Shown one piece after another: positions 2,714 through 10,700 of a stretch of 11,923 bases of DNA. The stretch is from the NCBI GenBank assembly GCA_005884605.1, contig VBBE01000084.1:1-11923 (forward strand). The letters are read 5' to 3'. Source of the DNA: Candidatus Bathyarchaeota archaeon. Lineage in GTDB: Archaea; Thermoproteota; Bathyarchaeia; 40CM-2-53-6. A model generated the notes under the pieces. It was not told the DNA's origin. It made no database searches and saw nothing but the letters and a program-made list of their open reading frames with translations. The position numbers and the translations under genes were made by a program. The first letter of the stretch is position 1. Every line of letters begins with the position of its first letter.

Positions 2714-3286
2714 CTACCTCTTAGTCTTCAGAATGTCTGACTTTGTCAGGATCCCAACAAGGTTCTCGCCCTTCGAAACGAGCACGCCATAGTTGGTCTG
2801 CAACAATCCAAGAACCAGATCGAGCGGAGTATCACTATTGACCACAGGCAACGGCGAATCCATGATCTCGCGAACCTTGAGGGTGAGAACTGACTCTAGA
2901 GACTCGCCCCGAGCGGCCCGATCAAGAATAGTCTTCTCCGAAATACTTCCAACACATCGTCCACCTTCGAAGACCGGAAGCTGCGAATAGCCCCTACGCC
3001 TCATCAAGTCAACAGCATCCCGGACAAGTTGTGTTCTCGCCACGGAAACGACTGGGCGACTAATGAGCTCGTCCACTCGACGTGCAGGGCTCTCGACCCC
3101 CGCCCTCTCCAAAGCGCTGAATAGTCTCTGGACGACCGTATAAGATGGGTCCACGGAACCCGCCTCAATCTTTGCGATTATCGATTGACTTACTCCAGCG
3201 GACAGAGCGAGTCTCGACTGCGTAAGTCCGAGTTCTTTCCTCTTCTTGGGAATCTCCCCCAACGAGGGTAACATATCCACAGACAT
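2714..3286 (-). CDS. XRE-type HTH transcriptional regulator with two CBS domains (190 aa)
   Basis: Residues 10-60 are a Cro/C1-type helix-turn-helix (IPKKRKELGLTQ, then GVSQSIIAKIEAG as the recognition region). Residues 72-125 are a first CBS domain (ELISRPVVSV, GYSQLPVFEGGRCVGSIS). Residues 138-189 are a second (VREIMDSPLPVV, GVLVSKGENLVGILTKSDIL). CBS pairs bind adenosyl ligands such as AMP, ATP or SAM and pass the state to a partner domain; SAM and methylthioadenosine binding is known for the archaeal CBS protein MJ0100. The divergent methionine operon makes SAM the natural guess here, but that is inference. Two palindromes lie in the spacer just upstream, one over its own putative promoter, which suggests autoregulation. 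M1 is preferred; M5 is possible. A dimer is expected. Confidence 0.88.
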   Translation of the reverse strand: MSVDMLPSLGEIPKKRKELGLTQSRLALSAGVSQSIIAKIEAGSVDPSYTVVQRLFSALERAGVESPARRVDELISRPVVSVARTQLVRDAVDLMRRRGYSQLPVFEGGRCVGSISEKTILDRAARGESLESVLTLKVREIMDSPLPVVNSDTPLDLVLGLLQTNYGVLVSKGENLVGILTKSDILKTKR

Positions 3287-3301
3287 GTCGGTCGGTACTC
3301 T

Positions 3302-3317
3302 TATTCCTATCGGAATA
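3302..3317. promoter_or_regulatory. Operator 1, palindrome TATTCCTATCGGAATA
   Basis: Perfect 6-base arms (TATTCC and GGAATA) with a 4-base centre. It lies 15 bases upstream of the regulator's ATG and overlaps the edge of its putative TATA element, so binding there should block the regulator's own transcription. Confidence 0.75.
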
Positions 3318-3323
3318 CATTAA
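3316..3323 (-). promoter_or_regulatory. Putative TATA element of the HTH-CBS gene
   Basis: Minus-strand TTAATGTA is centred about 33 bases before the ATG at 3286, giving a predicted start of transcription near 3293 and a leader of a few bases. It is a weak match, chosen for spacing and AT content. Confidence 0.35.
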
Positions 3324-3328
3324 GACCC

Positions 3329-3344
3329 TATTCCTAAAGGAATA
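3329..3344. promoter_or_regulatory. Operator 2, palindrome TATTCCTAAAGGAATA
   Basis: Identical arms to operator 1, starting 27 bases from it. It ends 15 bases before the met TATA box, outside the expected TBP/TFB footprint. That position is more typical of an archaeal activator site than of simple promoter blocking, though DNA looping or cooperative filling with operator 1 could repress. Confidence 0.75.
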
Positions 3345-3359
3345 TGAGTACGACAGAAC

Positions 3360-3367
3360 TTATATAA
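3360..3367 (+). promoter_or_regulatory. TATA box of the methionine operon
   Basis: TTATATAA is a near-ideal archaeal TATA box. Its centre is about 32 bases before the ATG at 3396, so transcription should start around 3390 with almost no leader, in line with the lack of a Shine-Dalgarno before that ATG. Confidence 0.7.
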
Positions 3368-3395
3368 TCAGAATAAATCAAAAGACAGCGAAAAC

Positions 3396-4376
3396 ATGTC
3401 CCCGGAAATCCAGCTTGCGGGAATTCACCCACGGTCAGAGAGACTAATTGATCTCACCCGCTCGTACGAGCGGGCAAAGGCCAGCTGGAGCCAGGTAGAG
3501 GTCCAACTTGAGCAGGAGACAAAGGAAGTTATCAAACTTCAAGAGAGTCTCGGCTTCGGACATTTTTCCGACGGTTCATTAGCGTGGCAAGATCAACTAA
3601 GACCTGTCACCCGATCCCTCAAAGGAGTGGAGTCTGGCACCCGATATTCAAGATGGTTTGACACTAATACGTTCTACCAAAAACCCATCATCGTAGGGAA
3701 GACTTCCGCCAGCGACATTGATCCCAAGAACTTTCTTCGAGCCGAACTCTTGACTGGAAAAAGAGAGCGAAAAATCACTCTCCCGGGACCCTACACGTTC
3801 TCTCAGCTGTCGGAAAACAAGCACTACAAGAATTATGCTGATCTCCTCGTCGACATTGCGCTTGCCGAACGAGAGATTGTCCAGAAACTCTGGAATGAAG
3901 GCGTTACACTATTCCAACTATCCGAGCCTTGTTTGGTCTATCAACCGTATAGAGAGAGCTTCAGAGATCAGTCCGAGGTTGACCTGGCTCTAGGAGCAAT
4001 TCGCTCAGTGGTCAAGGATAGTCCCGGAGAGTTTGTGGTCCAGACCTACTTTGGGGACTCTGCCCTGCTACTCCCGGACCTTTTAGATCTACCGATCTCC
4101 GGCGTTGGAATCGACCTTTTCGAAACCGACATTTCCTCGCTCAGAGAGCAGGAAAAAACCCCAAAAAAGCTCGTCCTGGGCGTTGTTGACTCGCGGGAGT
4201 CCTTCGTCGAGAATCCAAGCTGGATCGCCGATACAGCGCGGAAATTCTCAGAGAAAGTAGGTGCCCACAATCTGGTTTTTGCCTCCAATTCGGACTTGAA
4301 ATTTGTACCGCAAGAAATTGCAAATCAAAAGTTAGAGGCACTGTCTAAGGCATCCAAACTGTTCGAGAGGACTTAA
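3396..4376 (+). CDS. MetE N-terminal-domain-like protein, partner of the catalytic MetE core (326 aa)
   Basis: This resembles the N-terminal barrel of cobalamin-independent methionine synthase. Visible hallmarks are RWFDTNTFYQKP (86-97; MetE has WFDTNYHY), LPGPYTFSQLS (129-139), LSEPCL (175-180) where catalytic MetE has DEPAL, VVQTYFGD (214-221), and LVLGVVDSRESF (259-270). The zinc ligands of the catalytic half are absent: TYF stands where His-x-Cys would be, and the last Cys region reads ASNSD. It should therefore not catalyse the transfer alone; in full-length MetE this half helps hold the polyglutamyl folate donor and supports the catalytic half. It is first in a three-gene operon, three bases ahead of the core gene. 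Together the two total 727 residues, close to one bacterial MetE (about 750). Confidence 0.82.
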   Translation: MSPEIQLAGIHPRSERLIDLTRSYERAKASWSQVEVQLEQETKEVIKLQESLGFGHFSDGSLAWQDQLRPVTRSLKGVESGTRYSRWFDTNTFYQKPIIVGKTSASDIDPKNFLRAELLTGKRERKITLPGPYTFSQLSENKHYKNYADLLVDIALAEREIVQKLWNEGVTLFQLSEPCLVYQPYRESFRDQSEVDLALGAIRSVVKDSPGEFVVQTYFGDSALLLPDLLDLPISGVGIDLFETDISSLREQEKTPKKLVLGVVDSRESFVENPSWIADTARKFSEKVGAHNLVFASNSDLKFVPQEIANQKLEALSKASKLFERT

Positions 4377-4379
4377 CAG

Positions 4380-5585
4380 ATGACCAAGCTCTTTCCTGTT
4401 CAAGAAATCGGAAGCCTCGCTAAGCCCAAATGGAGAACCAAAGGGCTTCGACAACGACTTTCCTCGCAAGACCTCTTCGAGGCTGAAGAATGGGCTGAGA
4501 AGCTGGGCATTCAGGACTTTCACGATCGAGCTAAGAGCCTTCTCAATACTGGTGATGACAAGGAACGAGTCAAAGCGGTCCTTGAGCTCTCGACCTTGTA
4601 TGGCCTCCGCCTATTCGAAACCACAGGCGTAGACAACGACGGCGTAGGCGGAGAGCAACAGCGAGTCGAAATGTACGAGCACGTGATCAAAGCCGTGCAG
4701 GGGATGAACCTCCTGGGCCACGTTCACTCCTTTGACAACAAGTACTTCAACAAAGGAGTCGCAGAATCGAGAATCTCTAGAAAACACTCCGTCTACGTTC
4801 CAGAATTTCTGGATGTAAAGAAATACGCCCACCGTGCTGTGAAGGTCCCGATTACTGGACCTTACACCCTCGTGGATTGGTCCTTTAGCGGATACTACAT
4901 CCAGAAGCAACATGCCTCCTCTCCCAAGACACGGAAGATCGACGCAAAGCGCGAATTCCTCCTCGACATCGTGGAGCAAATCATACGGCCTGAGATCCGC
5001 GACCTGGTCAACGCGGGAGCAACTTGGATACAGATCGACGAACCAGCAGTGACCACTCACCCAGAACCCCAAGAAATGGAGCTCTTCGTAGAGGCGTGGA
5101 ACGAAACAGTCAAAGGATTCAATTGCAAGTTTAGCGACCACACGTGCTACCCATCCGAGATAGGATACAAAGTTCTCGCAGAATACGCACCAAAGCTGGA
5201 CAAGTGCGACCAACTCGCGCTAGAATTCGCCAACCGAGACACGTCACGTCTCGGACTCGATGAGGATTCCCGAGAAGGCTACAGCGACCTCAATCACTTC
5301 GTCAATGCTGGTTACAAGGGAGAATTCGGTCTTGGCGTCGCACACGTTCATGACTTTACAGGAAACGTGTCCTCCGGGGCAGGTCAATCCGTGGGACGAG
5401 ACCTGATTGAATCTCCAGAGCTGGTACGAGACCGACTTCTGTTCGCCACCAAGATTGTAGGGGACCCGGGGAAAATCTGGGCGAACCCAGACTGTGGACT
5501 GCGTACCAGAACGTGGGATGTAGCTTTCGCGAAGCTCGCAAACATCACGAAGGGAGCCGAACTAGCAAGGGAGGCATACCAATGA
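4380..5585 (+). CDS. metE: Cobalamin-independent methionine synthase, catalytic core (401 aa)
   Basis: It transfers a methyl group to homocysteine to give methionine. The zinc site of MetE is complete: H254 and C256 (DHTCY), E282 (ALEFANRD) and C372 (NPDCGLRTR). Other core motifs are VPITGPYTLVDWSF at 156-169 and QIDEPAV at 218-224. The protein starts directly on a core-like sequence (FPVQEIGSLAKP) and lacks the long N-terminal domain, which is instead encoded by the preceding gene. Core-only methionine synthases are known in archaea and some bacteria, where the methyl donor may be a folate, a pterin or a methylcorrinoid. A reductase of the MetF family overlapping by four bases (ATGA) favours a folate-type donor here. 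Likely co-transcribed and under the divergent HTH-CBS regulator. The substrate of any given core MetE is not settled by sequence. Confidence 0.9.
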   Translation: MTKLFPVQEIGSLAKPKWRTKGLRQRLSSQDLFEAEEWAEKLGIQDFHDRAKSLLNTGDDKERVKAVLELSTLYGLRLFETTGVDNDGVGGEQQRVEMYEHVIKAVQGMNLLGHVHSFDNKYFNKGVAESRISRKHSVYVPEFLDVKKYAHRAVKVPITGPYTLVDWSFSGYYIQKQHASSPKTRKIDAKREFLLDIVEQIIRPEIRDLVNAGATWIQIDEPAVTTHPEPQEMELFVEAWNETVKGFNCKFSDHTCYPSEIGYKVLAEYAPKLDKCDQLALEFANRDTSRLGLDEDSREGYSDLNHFVNAGYKGEFGLGVAHVHDFTGNVSSGAGQSVGRDLIESPELVRDRLLFATKIVGDPGKIWANPDCGLRTRTWDVAFAKLANITKGAELAREAYQ

Positions 5586-6487
5586 GACTGAGTGATCGGG
5601 CGAGGCACCACAACCTCGTAACGGTCGAACTCATTCCAGACAGAGTCGTTCCCAGCGATTTGTCCCTCCTAAGAGGAAGAGTTGACGCTATCACGGTTCC
5701 GGCCTTAAGGAATGGCCACGATGACCCAAGCTATCCAAAATCTTTCTCGATAACGCCCCAACGCAGAAGTCTTGCTTCCGCCTCGATTATCAATAGGGCC
5801 GGAATAACCGCCGTCCCCTCGCTAACATGTCGCGATTGCAACACGTCTGACTTGTCAGCTATCGCCAACCACGTGGTTCAAGGGCTTAGAAATGTGCTGA
5901 TCGTTTACGGAGACCCTTTTCCACAGCCCCATCCAGGGTCCTACCAGTTTGCCAAAACGAACGAGCTAATTCGGGAGATCTCCTCGCTAAACGGTGGGAA
6001 CGACCCATGTATTGGGGCAGTGACCAACCAGCACGCGGACAACAGGGAAAGCGAGATCTCCCGAACGATATCACGAGTCGATGCTGGTGCCGACTTCATC
6101 GTTACAAACGTCGCTTTCGACTCGGAGAGTGTGCTTGAGCACCGAGATGCTCTGCTTGAAGCAGGGCTAAACGTACCGCTGTTCATTCAAGTTTCTATTC
6201 CACTCAGCTTGGACAACGTGTTATTTGTGAGCCAGAAATTCGACATACCTGTCCCAGTTCACATCAGGAAAAAACTGTTAGACGATCCAACTGGAGGCAG
6301 TCTCGCAGTTGCCGCGGAGGCCTACGAGGCTCTACGTGATGAGGCGAATGGTATTCACTTCTCATATCTTTTCCGACGACGAAATCCGATTCCAACTTAT
6401 TGCCATTTGTTAGAGACAATTGGAATAGAGGGACCGACGTTGGCGCCGCTAGCAACATCTGCCGTGAAAACATATCCCGTCGCTTAG
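5582..6487 (+). CDS. metF: MetF-type 5,10-methylenetetrahydrofolate reductase-like protein (301 aa)
   Basis: A TIM-barrel flavoprotein family that reduces methylene-tetrahydrofolate to the methyl donor used by methionine synthase. Family features in order: E16 in VTVELIP (counterpart of E. coli Glu28), TCRDCN (82-87), GLRNVLIVYGDP (101-112) with D111 matching Asp120, VDAGADFIVTN (166-176), FIQVSIPLS (201-209), and GIHFSYLFRR near the C-terminus. The TQ of the family (E. coli Gln183, folate contact) is TN here, N176, and the neighbouring FFF is VAF, so pterin recognition may differ. ATG 5582 overlaps the metE stop as ATGA, which implies translational coupling; a longer in-frame start inside metE is not needed. 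It closes the operon, ending 34 bases before the convergent scpB. Length matches bacterial MetF. A related pterin-dependent reductase remains possible. Confidence 0.8.
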   Translation: MRLSDRARHHNLVTVELIPDRVVPSDLSLLRGRVDAITVPALRNGHDDPSYPKSFSITPQRRSLASASIINRAGITAVPSLTCRDCNTSDLSAIANHVVQGLRNVLIVYGDPFPQPHPGSYQFAKTNELIREISSLNGGNDPCIGAVTNQHADNRESEISRTISRVDAGADFIVTNVAFDSESVLEHRDALLEAGLNVPLFIQVSIPLSLDNVLFVSQKFDIPVPVHIRKKLLDDPTGGSLAVAAEAYEALRDEANGIHFSYLFRRRNPIPTYCHLLETIGIEGPTLAPLATSAVKTYPVA

Positions 6488-6510
6488 TGCTCTTCGGAGA
6501 GTCATAGTGC

Positions 6511-6523
6511 GACTGGAACAGTC
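6511..6523. terminator. Short hairpin between convergent metF and scpB
   Basis: GACTG (6511-6515), three bases, CAGTC (6519-6523), overlapping the scpB stop. A second small element, CTC-TTCG-GAG (6490-6499), lies just after the metF stop. There is no long T-run, so they may be end-processing or pause structures and not true terminators. Confidence 0.25.
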
Positions 6524-7115
6524 AAGTGTCAGGTTTTGTTGGTTGGACCGATGCTGGAGTGTCTTCTCCGAGCTGGAGAACTTTCTTCAATTCCTTTTTC
6601 ATGAGTGACGGGTCATGATTGAGGTTGAAATAATCTGCAAATGTTGTAGTTGTCCTTAGCATCCTGGTTCTCCCGATCCTCTCGTCATTAATCAGATCCA
6701 TGTCCTTTAGCTGTTTCACATGAACGTAGGCCAGTTTTCCACGGACCCGCACGACGTAGGACTGGGTGACTGGCTGCTTCAAGGCTATGAACGATAGAGT
6801 TCGTAGAGGACCTGGTGTCAGAAGTGGTCTGTTCGCCAGTTTTCGAACATGCTTGGCGAATTCCCCCTTTAGTTGCATGACAAAACGTCCGTCGGGAAGT
6901 TCCACGACCTGAATTGGACTCTCCGCTATCTTGTAACGCTCCGAAACTGCCATCGCGATTCCGCGTATCTTGTCCTCTGATCTAGCGCCAATGACGGACC
7001 CGATCATCTTTAGGTCGAGAGGCCTTCCAGAGACGTAAAGCGCGGCCTCGCAAAGTTGCTGCTGTAGGTCAGCAGTTTTCGGTTGAGCGGAATTAGTCGA
7101 AACTTGTGCTTCCAT
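6522..7115 (-). CDS. scpB: Segregation and condensation protein B (197 aa)
   Basis: ScpB dimers bind ScpA, the kleisin that bridges SMC heads, and are needed for chromosome compaction and segregation. Two winged-helix domains are visible: the first about residues 16-92 (LCEAALYVSGRPLDL, matching the family's EAxLFxSGxPL), the second about 93-165 with the family signature LRTLSFIALKQPVTQ (104-118), the RVRG turn (123-126), and TTTTFADYFNL (155-165). The N-terminal 15 and C-terminal 25 residues look disordered. It is last in the minus-strand operon. Its ATG overlaps the end of scpA by 23 bases, so translation is probably coupled. The product is acidic to neutral with no membrane segment. Confidence 0.9.
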   Translation of the reverse strand: MEAQVSTNSAQPKTADLQQQLCEAALYVSGRPLDLKMIGSVIGARSEDKIRGIAMAVSERYKIAESPIQVVELPDGRFVMQLKGEFAKHVRKLANRPLLTPGPLRTLSFIALKQPVTQSYVVRVRGKLAYVHVKQLKDMDLINDERIGRTRMLRTTTTFADYFNLNHDPSLMKKELKKVLQLGEDTPASVQPTKPDT

Positions 7116-7770
7116 CGTATTTCAGCTCGATTTCAATATCACCGAACTCTAATGGCTGAGCGAGGCCGACCCTTCCCTCTACTGCTAAGAATAGCAACAT
7201 GATGAACATTCTGACTGCTTCGAGAGGGTCCCCTTTTCCTAGAAGGGTTAGGAAGGAGAGCTTCTTCGGTCCAAGGCCTGCTTCTTTGAGAAGTCTTCGG
7301 AGGAAGGCTTTGATATTTTCTTCTATCTTGACAAGAAAATCGTCGACTTGTTCGAACACTTCTGGCGTTCTGAGGACCATTTGTGCGCTTGCCGGAAGCA
7401 TTCTCTCCGCCGTTAACACCTCCAGTAATCCTTTGATGACCTCCTCAACGGAAGTGGTTGTCGATTCGTAGCGTAGCGGAAAAGACAGGGGTGGTGGGAC
7501 GAAATCTGTAGGCCTCTCGAGCGGAGGCTTCGGAGGTTCTTCCATCTTGAGGATGAGCTCTGATTTCATACGTAGTAGAATGGCAGAGGAGAGGAGGGCG
7601 GTGCCGGAGACGGAGAAGTCTATGAATCCTCTACTTCTCATCTCATGGAGGAGCTCATCGAGCAGATATGCTAGGTTTACGTCCCACGGTTTTACGCGGT
7701 GAAGGTGGATCAGGTCAAAGAGGACAGCATAGGGTTCCTTCAGCCAGTATGCTTGTTCCTGAACTGTCAG
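7093..7770 (-). CDS. scpA: Segregation and condensation protein A, kleisin, with probable CTG start (225 aa)
   Basis: ScpA bridges the two heads of the SMC dimer and carries ScpB. The N-terminal SMC-neck-binding region is clear in sequence: YAVLFDLIHLHRVKPWDVNL (14-33), then SGTALLSSAILLRMKSEL, the family's AAxLLxxKS helix. A C-terminal winged-helix part follows (AVRMFIMLLFLAVEGRV, then FGDIEIEL). No ATG, GTG or TTG exists in frame upstream of M44 (ATG 7641), and starting there would delete the PWDVN region. The codon at 7770-7768 is CTG; it overlaps the smc stop as CTGA and has GAGGAG seven bases upstream, so I take it as the start. Length then equals that of other archaeal ScpA proteins. 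The middle (residues 75-100) is a proline-rich linker. A frameshift from smc is the main alternative. Confidence 0.85.
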   Translation of the reverse strand: MTVQEQAYWLKEPYAVLFDLIHLHRVKPWDVNLAYLLDELLHEMRSRGFIDFSVSGTALLSSAILLRMKSELILKMEEPPKPPLERPTDFVPPPLSFPLRYESTTTSVEEVIKGLLEVLTAERMLPASAQMVLRTPEVFEQVDDFLVKIEENIKAFLRRLLKEAGLGPKKLSFLTLLGKGDPLEAVRMFIMLLFLAVEGRVGLAQPLEFGDIEIELKYDGSTSFD

Positions 7771-10700
7771 TTGTTCTCTCCTCTTGAGGGCAGGGATACT
7801 ATCTGGCTGCTGCCTTTGTCGATGAAGACGCCGAACACTCTCTCTGCTCTCGATATTGTAGTGTCTTTGAGCGAGATCACGATGAACTGAGACATGCTAC
7901 TCCTCGACCTTAGAAGGGTGGCTAGGCGTTTTGCGTTTAGCACATCCAAGTGTGCGTCGATCTCGTCCATTACGTAGAACGGCATTGGATGGATTTGTTG
8001 GAGTGCGAGGAGGTAGCAGACTGTTGAGACCGACTTCTCTCCTCCGCTTGCGCTTCCGATTGTGAGCTCTGTTTTTCCGGGGAACTGGAGAAGGACATCG
8101 AGTCCGCCCTCAAAGGGGTTTTCCGGATTATCCAGAACCATTCTTCCATTTCCTTCGCCGGTCATTTCGCGAAAGATGCTCTGGAATGTCTCGTTGACCT
8201 TGTTATAGGCGCTCATGAAGGTGTCATGTTTCTTTCTCTCGAGTTCGTTCATGAAGTCTAGGATGGCTAGTTTCTCCCTTTCGAGTTCTCCGATCCTGAC
8301 TGAGAGGTGTTTGTATCCTTCTTTCTGCGATTCGTATTGTTGCGCAGCGAGCTGGTTGATAGCACCTATCTCGTCCCGTTCCTGTTCGAGTACGCGTTTC
8401 ATATCTTCGGCCTCCTTGATGAGGTCCGGGTGAGTCTCGAGTGGCGTCTCGAATCCGAGGGTCCTGAGTTGTCCTTTGAAGATTGTCAGTTGAGCGTCAA
8501 CTTCTCTAAGACCCGCCTTTAGATCAGTAATGCCTGCATTGAGTGGATCCATCATCTGTAGAAGCTTTCGAGTTGCCTTTTCGATCTCCACAAACTGTTC
8601 TTCGTACTTCTTCCTCTCCGCCCCAACACTGTCCAAGTTTCCAACCAACCGCTGCTTCTCCTCGTAGAACTGTTTCATCTCTTTCTCAAGCGTTTCGAGC
8701 CGCTGATGCGCTTCGCTGGCTCGTGTCTCTTCGCGATGAATTTCAGAGTCAAGCGAGCGCAGTTGTATTCGGATCTGGTCGATTCCGGGCCTGAGGGTCT
8801 CGAGCGAAGACTGATGGGAAGAGAGACGCGTTTCTAGCTCTAGCTTCTCCCGAAGAATGACCTGGTTCTCGGCGGTAGCTTGGTCTCGTTCCGTTTCGAG
8901 TTGAGAAAGCGCTGATCTTCTGGAATCTATTCTGAGTCTTGTTCTCTCCTCTTCTATAATTGCTAGCCGCCTCTTCATCTCCGCCTGTTTCTCCGCTGTT
9001 TCATCCAAGAGGACTTTTTCTTTCGTCATGGAGTTCTGTAGACTGTCAATGCGTCTGGTTGTCTGTTGCAGGAAGGTTCTTGTTCTCTCGAAACTCTTCT
9101 TGGCAAGTTCTACATCCCTTGCCAAGGCCTCTCGGGTCTTGCTAGCGGACACTCGGTCTTCCAGAAGCTCGCCTAGTTCGGTCTCGATACGGTCAACGTC
9201 TGACCGAGATCGTTGGACGACTGTCTCTAGCGATTTTACGGTTTTTTCAAGGCTCTCAAGCGCGGTGGATCGGGGAACTAGGTTCGAGATCTCGAGGGGG
9301 GCTCTGTAGTAGCCGCTCTCGAGACCTCCGCCCGGCTCGTAAAGGTCCCCGCTGGTTACGACGCATCTTTGTCCCCTGGACGCAGTCAGGAAGGCTGCTC
9401 TTTGTGTTGTGGCTAGGATGGTGTCCCCGAAAACGAATCGGACAGCGGGAGTAATGGATTTGTCAGACCGAATTACTTTGGATAGAGGACCGATTATTCC
9501 AGAGACGTTGTCGGAGTCTATTTCCAAATCTGAAAGTTCGAGATCTTCTATGGGAACGATCTTGACGCGTCCAAGCTTGGTACGTTTCAGACTTTCAACA
9601 CAACGGATTGCAACTTCGAGGTTCTTGACGACGAGCGCTTTCATCCAACCGGCGCTAGCGGCTTGAATTGCCTTGCGGTATTCTTCGGGGAACTTGACGA
9701 GATCTTCTAGACGGCCGTAGACGCCTTTTAGAGCGCCTTCATCGGCCATCTCTTCGATCTTCTCGATGGCCTTGTCTTCAGCTCCCATATTGTCTGCTAA
9801 GTTCTTTTGGGTGTTGAATTCGACTACGGTGACTCTTGCCTTCTTTGCGATGTCGAGAGCCTCGTCAATCTCTTTTCTGCGCTGGTCCTTGAGTTCGCCG
9901 TACTCCTTTGTTTTCTGCTCGATCGATTCGAGCCGTTTTTCTTCTTCCTTCTGAAGCTTCTCCATTTCGCGGATTCTAGTCTTCAGCTCCTCTGAGAGCT
10001 GGACGAACTCTTTCTGACGGGCTTCCAAGGTTTGCAGATGGCTGGCGGTGAGATCGAGTTTTGTCGAACTGCCTTTGCTCTGGGCGGTTAGGTTTGAGAG
10101 TTCCTTTCCTAGGCCGTCGATCTCGTCCTGGACTTCGCGGAGCTTCTTACTGTCCTGGTCGATAGATGATCTGGCCGCGGTGAGCTTCTGGCTGATCTTT
10201 TCGACCTTGGAGTTGGAATCGTCTATCTTCTCCTCAAGGACTTTCTTATGTGACTGGAGGCTTTTGATCGAACTGGATAAGGGTTTGATGGAGGTTTCCA
10301 ACTCTTCCGCCTGTTTCGTGAAAGCTTCGCGTTGTCTTGTCCGGGTCGCAACAAGGTTCTTCGCTGTTTCTGCGGCGGACTTTGCTTCGACGATGCCCTT
10401 GCTAGCTTCCGCGATGCGTCTTTCGAGATCGAAGAGTTCTTGGTTTCCTTGGGTGACTGTCTTCTCCTCGAAGCTACGTCGGTCCTGTTCGATCTTCGCT
10501 CTCTGCTGCGTTAAGTCTTCTCTTTCATGTCTCACTTGATCGAGTTTAATCTGTTCCTGTTCGAGGGTCTGTGACATTTCCTGATGGCGGTTTTCGAGTG
10601 CTAGTATTTGGGCGGAGAGGATGCGCGCTTGTTGACTGTTTATCTCGGTCTTGAGAAGATTGGACCGGAGAAGGTCGTTTCTCTCTCTTTCCAATTGCTC

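Follow-up and report, generated by a model that had tools for sequence, protein, structure and literature searches.

In our study, the two palindromes lying between a CBS-domain regulator gene and a methionine (met) operon of a Candidatus Bathyarchaeota archaeon were, with a probability of about 85%, operators of the divergently encoded XRE-CBS protein, which would then be a regulator of methionine and S-adenosylmethionine (SAM) synthesis; its binding, its ligand and the sign of its action are deduced from comparisons of sequences and of a structure model. A specific operator of this protein had been proposed in the original prediction, and the proposal was strengthened by the presence of both sites in 17/17 relatives with the same gene pair, of the core motif before 28/33 distant regulator genes and of a SAM-synthetase site in 0/19 genomes without a regulator orthologue. 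Putative operators were found before several methionine and SAM genes, namely the met operon (18/18 sequences), SAM synthetase (14/14 close and 12/27 distant genomes) and a rhodanese (11/14).

The window, which is the whole stretch of DNA analysed (11,923 nucleotides, contig VBBE01000084.1), contained the gene of the XRE-HTH and CBS-pair regulator at 2714..3274 on the minus strand (Pfam HTH_3, 4e-11; CBS, 9e-23). The family alignment placed its start codon at an internal ATG, position 3274 (MLPSL...), instead of at 3286, the same methionine being aligned in all 18 spacers, and the divergent spacer, previously given as 109 bp, was lengthened to 121 bp (3275-3395). The plus strand contained a MetE-like protein of the N-terminal type (3396..4376; Meth_synt_1 and Meth_synt_2), a MetE-like protein of the catalytic type (4380..5585; Meth_synt_2) and a methylenetetrahydrofolate-reductase-like protein (5576..6487; MTHFR, 5e-19). 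A KaiC-like ATPase, whose long N-terminus looks disordered, was found directly downstream of the regulator (1277-2662), with matches in 17/17 syntenic loci. An open frame at 46-420, in which Pfam recognised a Cas12f1-like TNB domain (PF07282), was probably an IS605-type TnpB remnant.

The palindromes were present exactly where they had been reported, pal1 (TATTCCTATCGGAATA) at 3302-3317 and pal2 (TATTCCTAAAGGAATA) at 3329-3344, with their starts 27 bp apart. The full motif was TATTCCN4GGAATA and its core ATTCN6GAAT; the half-sites of each palindrome lay one helical turn apart. At up to three mismatches, the window contained 6 strand-counted matches against 0.55 expected, and 0/200 shuffles reached 6. 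Pal1, centred about 35 bp upstream of the regulator's start codon (3274), is the putative operator at the regulator's own promoter, and pal2 is the putative operator of the met operon, whose predicted TATA box TTATATAAT was found at 3361..3369 on the plus strand. The spacer formed a larger dyad (3290-3357), with GTACTC on the outer flank of pal1 and its complement GAGTAC flanking pal2; the pal1-side GTACTC was lost in L010-L016, and GTAC beside pal2 was kept in 17/18 sequences. The intergenic near-palindrome at 831-846 (TATCCCTAGGGGAATA, core CCCTAGGGG) was rejected as a part of the system and is probably unrelated, its core being found in 1 of the 17 close loci as fetched (L003), some of which stop short of that place; one further copy of the core was found elsewhere in G002.

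A contig scan with a 19-sequence regulator alignment gave 52 loci, of which 51 were full homologues and one (L052, Blautia) was an HTH hit only. The close set (L001-L017) comprised soil Bathyarchaeia with regulators 70-96% identical to that of the window, and with the window added it gave 18 sequences; the 17 close loci are mutually related and do not form 17 independent tests. The regulator was divergent from both MetE genes in 17/17 of these loci, followed by the MTHFR gene in 16/17 (the contig of L004 stops before it). Both palindromes were kept in every one of the 17, which answered the concern that the motif might be absent from relatives with the same gene pair. The arms of pal1 were conserved at 12/12 bases in 18/18 sequences, and those of pal2 at 12/12 in 10, 11/12 in 4 and 10/12 in 4. 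Mean column identity over the 18 sequences was 97% in the arms, 71% in the four-base centres, 51% between the palindromes, 57% on the regulator side, 88% from pal2 to the TATA box and 97% in the TATA box itself.

The distance from the end of pal2 to the TTATATAA box was exactly 15 bp in 18/18 sequences, whereas the distance between the starts of pal1 and pal2 was 25-28 bp in 11 sequences and 34-36 bp in 7. The 27-bp spacing and the shared TA after the left arm, both pointed out originally, were true of the window and were not conserved in relatives, where the centres varied more than the arms; given the range of 25-36 bp, a fixed-spacing twin arrangement acting as a cooperative unit was rejected as unsupported. 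Conservation concerned the position of the individual palindromes with respect to a gene start or a TATA box. Since the gap between pal2 and the TATA box was fixed while the distance between the palindromes varied, each of the two appears to be tied to a promoter of its own.

The exact full motif was found 41 times in the genomes of the close relatives, with at least one site in 17/17, and the reversed control pattern 0 times. At up to one mismatch, the 17 genomes contained 5-16 sites each against 0-4 for the control, part of these sites being placed. The exact matches were confined to five locus classes, so the motif was not randomly scattered: 26 lay in the regulator/met spacer (assigned by position), 6 before S-adenosylmethionine synthetase (PF01941), 4 before the rhodanese, 4 before a membrane protein and 1 before a class-V aminotransferase. 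Clustering ahead of methionine, SAM or sulfur genes, which the original prediction had suggested checking, was thus found at the regulator/met spacer, SAM synthetase and rhodanese, and the membrane protein and aminotransferase fall outside known methionine genes.

The rhodanese was a two-domain protein, for which the nearest NCBIfam model was 3-mercaptopyruvate sulfurtransferase, below its cut-off. Among its 14 orthologues (L105-L118; the second copy in G001, L122, and paralogues of about 30% identity were left out), a site with up to one mismatch was found in 10 and one with two mismatches in 1 more, and none in 3; where a site was present (11 orthologues), 11-14 bp separated it from a TATA-like box. 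The membrane protein ranged from 540 to 624 amino acids; three copies were without a Pfam match, and the one checked was without an NCBIfam match. Its gene was preceded by one palindrome or by two abutting ones (L070, L074, L075, L078, L085, L238), the abutting pair being found in G002, G003, G004 and G008 at up to two mismatches; the family is possibly a transporter of methionine or a sulfur compound. The class-V aminotransferase was set aside as a conserved target, its site occurring in one genome only (L083), and the similar one-mismatch site in G003 lay inside a long reading frame.

Before SAM synthetase, a site with up to one mismatch was found in all 14 close genomes with the 5' end of the gene, and in each of them a conserved TTAATA box lay 12-13 bp further on. 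In this count, L104 and L143 were dropped (gene without 5' end), and G011 and G012 gave no SAM-synthetase match. Among the distant genomes bearing the regulator, the SAM-synthetase site (up to two mismatches) was present in 12/27 and absent in 15/27. The first distant set (the 30 genomes behind L018-L051, leaving out those of L032, L046, L049 and L050) contained it in 8/13, including four Thermoplasmata with an enzyme 39-41% identical to the query; the second contained it in 4/14, and in 3 of those 4 the operator was common to a divergent regulator gene. Shuffles gave about 0.1 expected sites per set.

In the distant loci (L018-L051), the regulator was 37-50% identical to that of the window, and no match to the met genes of the window was found. 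Of these, 24/34 adjoined a methionine, SAM or threonine-synthase gene, with Pfam and NCBIfam checks made on representatives. MetY with MetX was the divergent neighbour in 8 loci (MetW seen in 4), and an HcyBio gene, together with NIL/ferredoxin and PRK04334-like genes, took this place in 5. Threonine synthase did so in 7, a ThiS-like carrier being seen in 6 of them; the others were a bacterial-type SAM synthetase in 2, an archaeal SAM synthetase in 1 and TiaS in 3. L024, L033, L042, L043, L046 (contig end), L047 and L049 were without such a divergent neighbour, and in L048 the threonine synthase and ThiS-like carrier followed the regulator instead. Wherever threonine synthase lay beside the regulator (L022, L037-L041, L044, L048), it was accompanied by a small ThiS/MoaD-like sulfur carrier, except in L041 (contig end), and L048 added an E1-like gene; the pair could represent a thiocarboxylate-dependent route from phosphohomoserine to homocysteine. 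In the Aenigmarchaeota MAG of L030, the bacterial-type SAM synthetase (5399-7918) contained an inserted LAGLIDADG domain, probably an intein.

Of the 33 distant loci with usable upstream DNA, which leave out L046 (regulator at the contig end) and L052, 28 had the exact core in the 120 bp preceding the regulator gene; it was missing in L031, L032, L034, L049 and L050. In 23 of the 28, it was centred 33-38 bp before the start codon, the same distance as that of pal1 in the window. Sites within two mismatches of the full motif preceded the regulator in 26/33 loci against 0.31 expected from shuffles. In the 8 MetY-linked loci, the distance from the start of a GTTATA box to the start of the operator was exactly 22 bp, which places the operator over the expected start site. 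The MetY/regulator spacer (L018, L020, L021, L025-L029) also contained a second conserved inverted repeat, ATAACNNNGTTAT, overlapping the TATA box of the regulator, which may be a two-way TATA element. In 17 distant genomes, the exact motif occurred 10 times against 1 for the control. Three of these sites were at the regulator and 2 at SAM synthetase, 4 fell within reading frames, and 1 was in an intergenic region without an evident target. With 5 of the 10 away from both genes, an exact match alone is weak evidence outside the clade of the window.

The regulator contained HTH_3 at its N-terminus (43.1 bits, Pfam cut-off 23) and CBS in two stretches (80.8 bits), corresponding to two CBS repeats. 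The AlphaFold model (mean pLDDT 88.5, pTM 0.61) showed a CBS-pair fold. In Foldseek, the best matches of this half were AcuB with AMP, ADP, ATP or Ap4A, and the first 50 included the regulatory domain of human cystathionine beta-synthase with SAM (4uuu) and MJ0100 with SAM or MTA (3kpb, 3kpd); MJ0100 also matched the regulator by sequence profile. The T-x-x-D of the second repeat (T177, D180), which we take to be a ribose-contacting motif, was invariant in 32/32 sequences. The structural matches suggest that the CBS pair likely binds an adenosyl ligand, SAM being preferred from the pathway and not from the fold. An NCBIfam match to an anti-phage CBS protein (48.9 bits against a cut-off of 260) was discarded, only the CBS domains being shared.

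In the proposed mechanism, a dimer of the regulator would bind each palindrome through its HTH domains, and the CBS pair would sense the pathway, most likely via an adenosyl ligand such as SAM. Pal1, at the regulator's own start site, would give autorepression, and pal2, ending 15 bp ahead of the met TATA box, would set met expression, probably through activation by contact with TBP/TFB. In relatives, the same protein would also control SAM synthetase and the rhodanese, as at met from just upstream of the TATA box; in other lineages its gene lies next to SAM synthetase, threonine synthase or an enzyme that forms homocysteine. No TATA box of the regulator itself was evident in the clade of the window; its place under the 22-bp rule would coincide in part with pal2, which may then dampen the regulator as well.

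The same protein and the same operators could also act with the opposite sign at met. By a MetJ-like logic, the ligand-bound regulator would be a pure repressor, blocking TFB/TBP at pal2 and its own start site at pal1; SAM feedback would then be simple, pal2 is near enough to the TATA box to make contact on its BRE side, and the 88% conservation between them could be a shared footprint. The met, SAM-synthetase and rhodanese sites stay 11-15 bp clear of the TATA box, however, and for the archaeal TrmBL1/Tgr regulators the excerpted text of PMC4158304 associates sites upstream of BRE/TATA with activation and sites over the start or downstream with repression. Because of this site-position rule, activation is favored over blockage at met by about three to two, an estimate made by analogy, and pure repression keeps a real, though minority, chance of being the correct account.

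A transcription factor encoded near an operator is not always its ligand, and another protein might bind the palindromes, with the XRE-CBS gene as a passenger or a target. The link to the XRE-CBS protein was drawn from co-occurrence: the core stood before the regulator gene in those 28 of 33 distant loci despite their differing neighbors, and the SAM-synthetase site was absent from all 19 enzymes found among 30 genomes without an orthologue. These 30 were picked for their lower scores from the 300-genome search described next; 20 of them had a paralogue at E 1e-57 to 1e-39, and the other 10 had E >1e-17. Genome-wide they contained 6 exact motif matches against 4 for the control, compared with 41 against 0 in the close relatives. 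Among the matches listed for 300 genomes of one phylum, the best 30 loci and 20 chosen lower-scoring ones were analysed. Ten of the best 30 lay in genomes already seen; the exact core preceded the regulator in 23/30 (14/20 in the new genomes) and was absent in 7. Their divergent neighbors included SAM synthetase (L170, L173, L174), Cys/Met PLP enzymes (L176-L183, two of them Pfam-checked), MetY, HcyBio and a threonine-synthase-like gene. The chosen lower-scoring paralogues (L184-L203) contained the exact core in 0/20, even L197, which was divergent from SAM synthetase. In a quick tree of 81 regulators, the own-site label needed 8 changes against 24.6 in shuffles; 4 of the 8 were forced by well-supported branches, and the long branches leave the details unsure. 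A different binding protein has a slim chance.

SAM riboswitches control such genes in bacteria, a precedent for an RNA element, yet this was rejected, with 0 Rfam matches at gathering score in the window and with the position of pal2 upstream of the met TATA box, where it should not be transcribed with met, and chance inverted repeats were excluded by the conservation and genome enrichment, so that an RNA element, a terminator or chance together are negligible.

The regulator-operator pair was found in Bathyarchaeia and other Thermoproteota, Culexarchaeota, Thermoplasmatota and Aenigmarchaeota. It may form an ancient SAM-sensing switch, a fixed pair in which the guarded enzyme (methionine synthase, acetylhomoserine sulfhydrylase, HcyBio, SAM synthetase or threonine synthase) has been swapped by lineage, activating from upstream of TATA and repressing itself at the start site; we hold this full reading tentatively, at somewhat below even odds. 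Horizontal transfer, rather than descent, may account for the distribution of the pair.

To our knowledge, no regulator of methionine or SAM synthesis has been described in archaea, and full-text searches of open-licence PMC papers listed neither a methionine regulator of archaea nor an archaeal XRE-CBS protein with a link to methionine. Bacterial MetR has a divergent arrangement and autoregulation. In the excerpt of PMC4239095, this LysR-family protein has a conserved core regulon of metE and its own gene, the motif ATGAA-N5-TTCAT and homocysteine as effector, which makes MetR-metE the nearest functional case, a regulator tied to metE and its own gene through a palindromic operator. Unlike MetR, the present protein combines an XRE-HTH with a CBS pair and faces archaeal promoters; its Pfam scan gave HTH_3 and CBS only, and no LysR-type HTH or substrate-binding domain, and its putative operator was TATTCC-N4-GGAATA, not the MetR motif. 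Bacterial MetJ, with SAM as co-repressor (PMC1282579, as excerpted), and SahR/SamR likewise control methionine/SAM genes by DNA binding, but MetJ is a ribbon-helix-helix protein, a fold not found in the HTH_3 and CBS regulator, and SahR proteins belong to the ArsR type; these are proteobacterial and lack CBS domains. The archaeal TrmBL1/Tgr regulators share palindromic sites, whose place decides the sign in the excerpt of PMC4158304; they differ in being sugar-responsive members of the TrmB family with the motif TATCAC-N5-GTGATA, and are not homologous. The SAM-bound CBS pairs of MJ0100 and human cystathionine beta-synthase resemble the regulator in the sensor fold and the T-x-x-D of the second repeat, but they carry no HTH, and the top structural matches of the regulator were to nucleotide-bound AcuB. 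What appears to be new here is an archaeal DNA-binding regulator of methionine/SAM genes with a different protein build and an unusually stable operator, the binding being predicted from the sequence patterns.

With the protein family, the putative operator and the target list named together, binding, ligand and sign become directly testable. The system would clearly exemplify a regulator for which operator and pathway are retained and the enzyme under control is exchanged. The motif could also serve in the search for unknown methionine genes, such as the Pfam-less membrane protein family, and the threonine-synthase/sulfur-carrier pairs, also reached through it, may be an unrecognised route to homocysteine.
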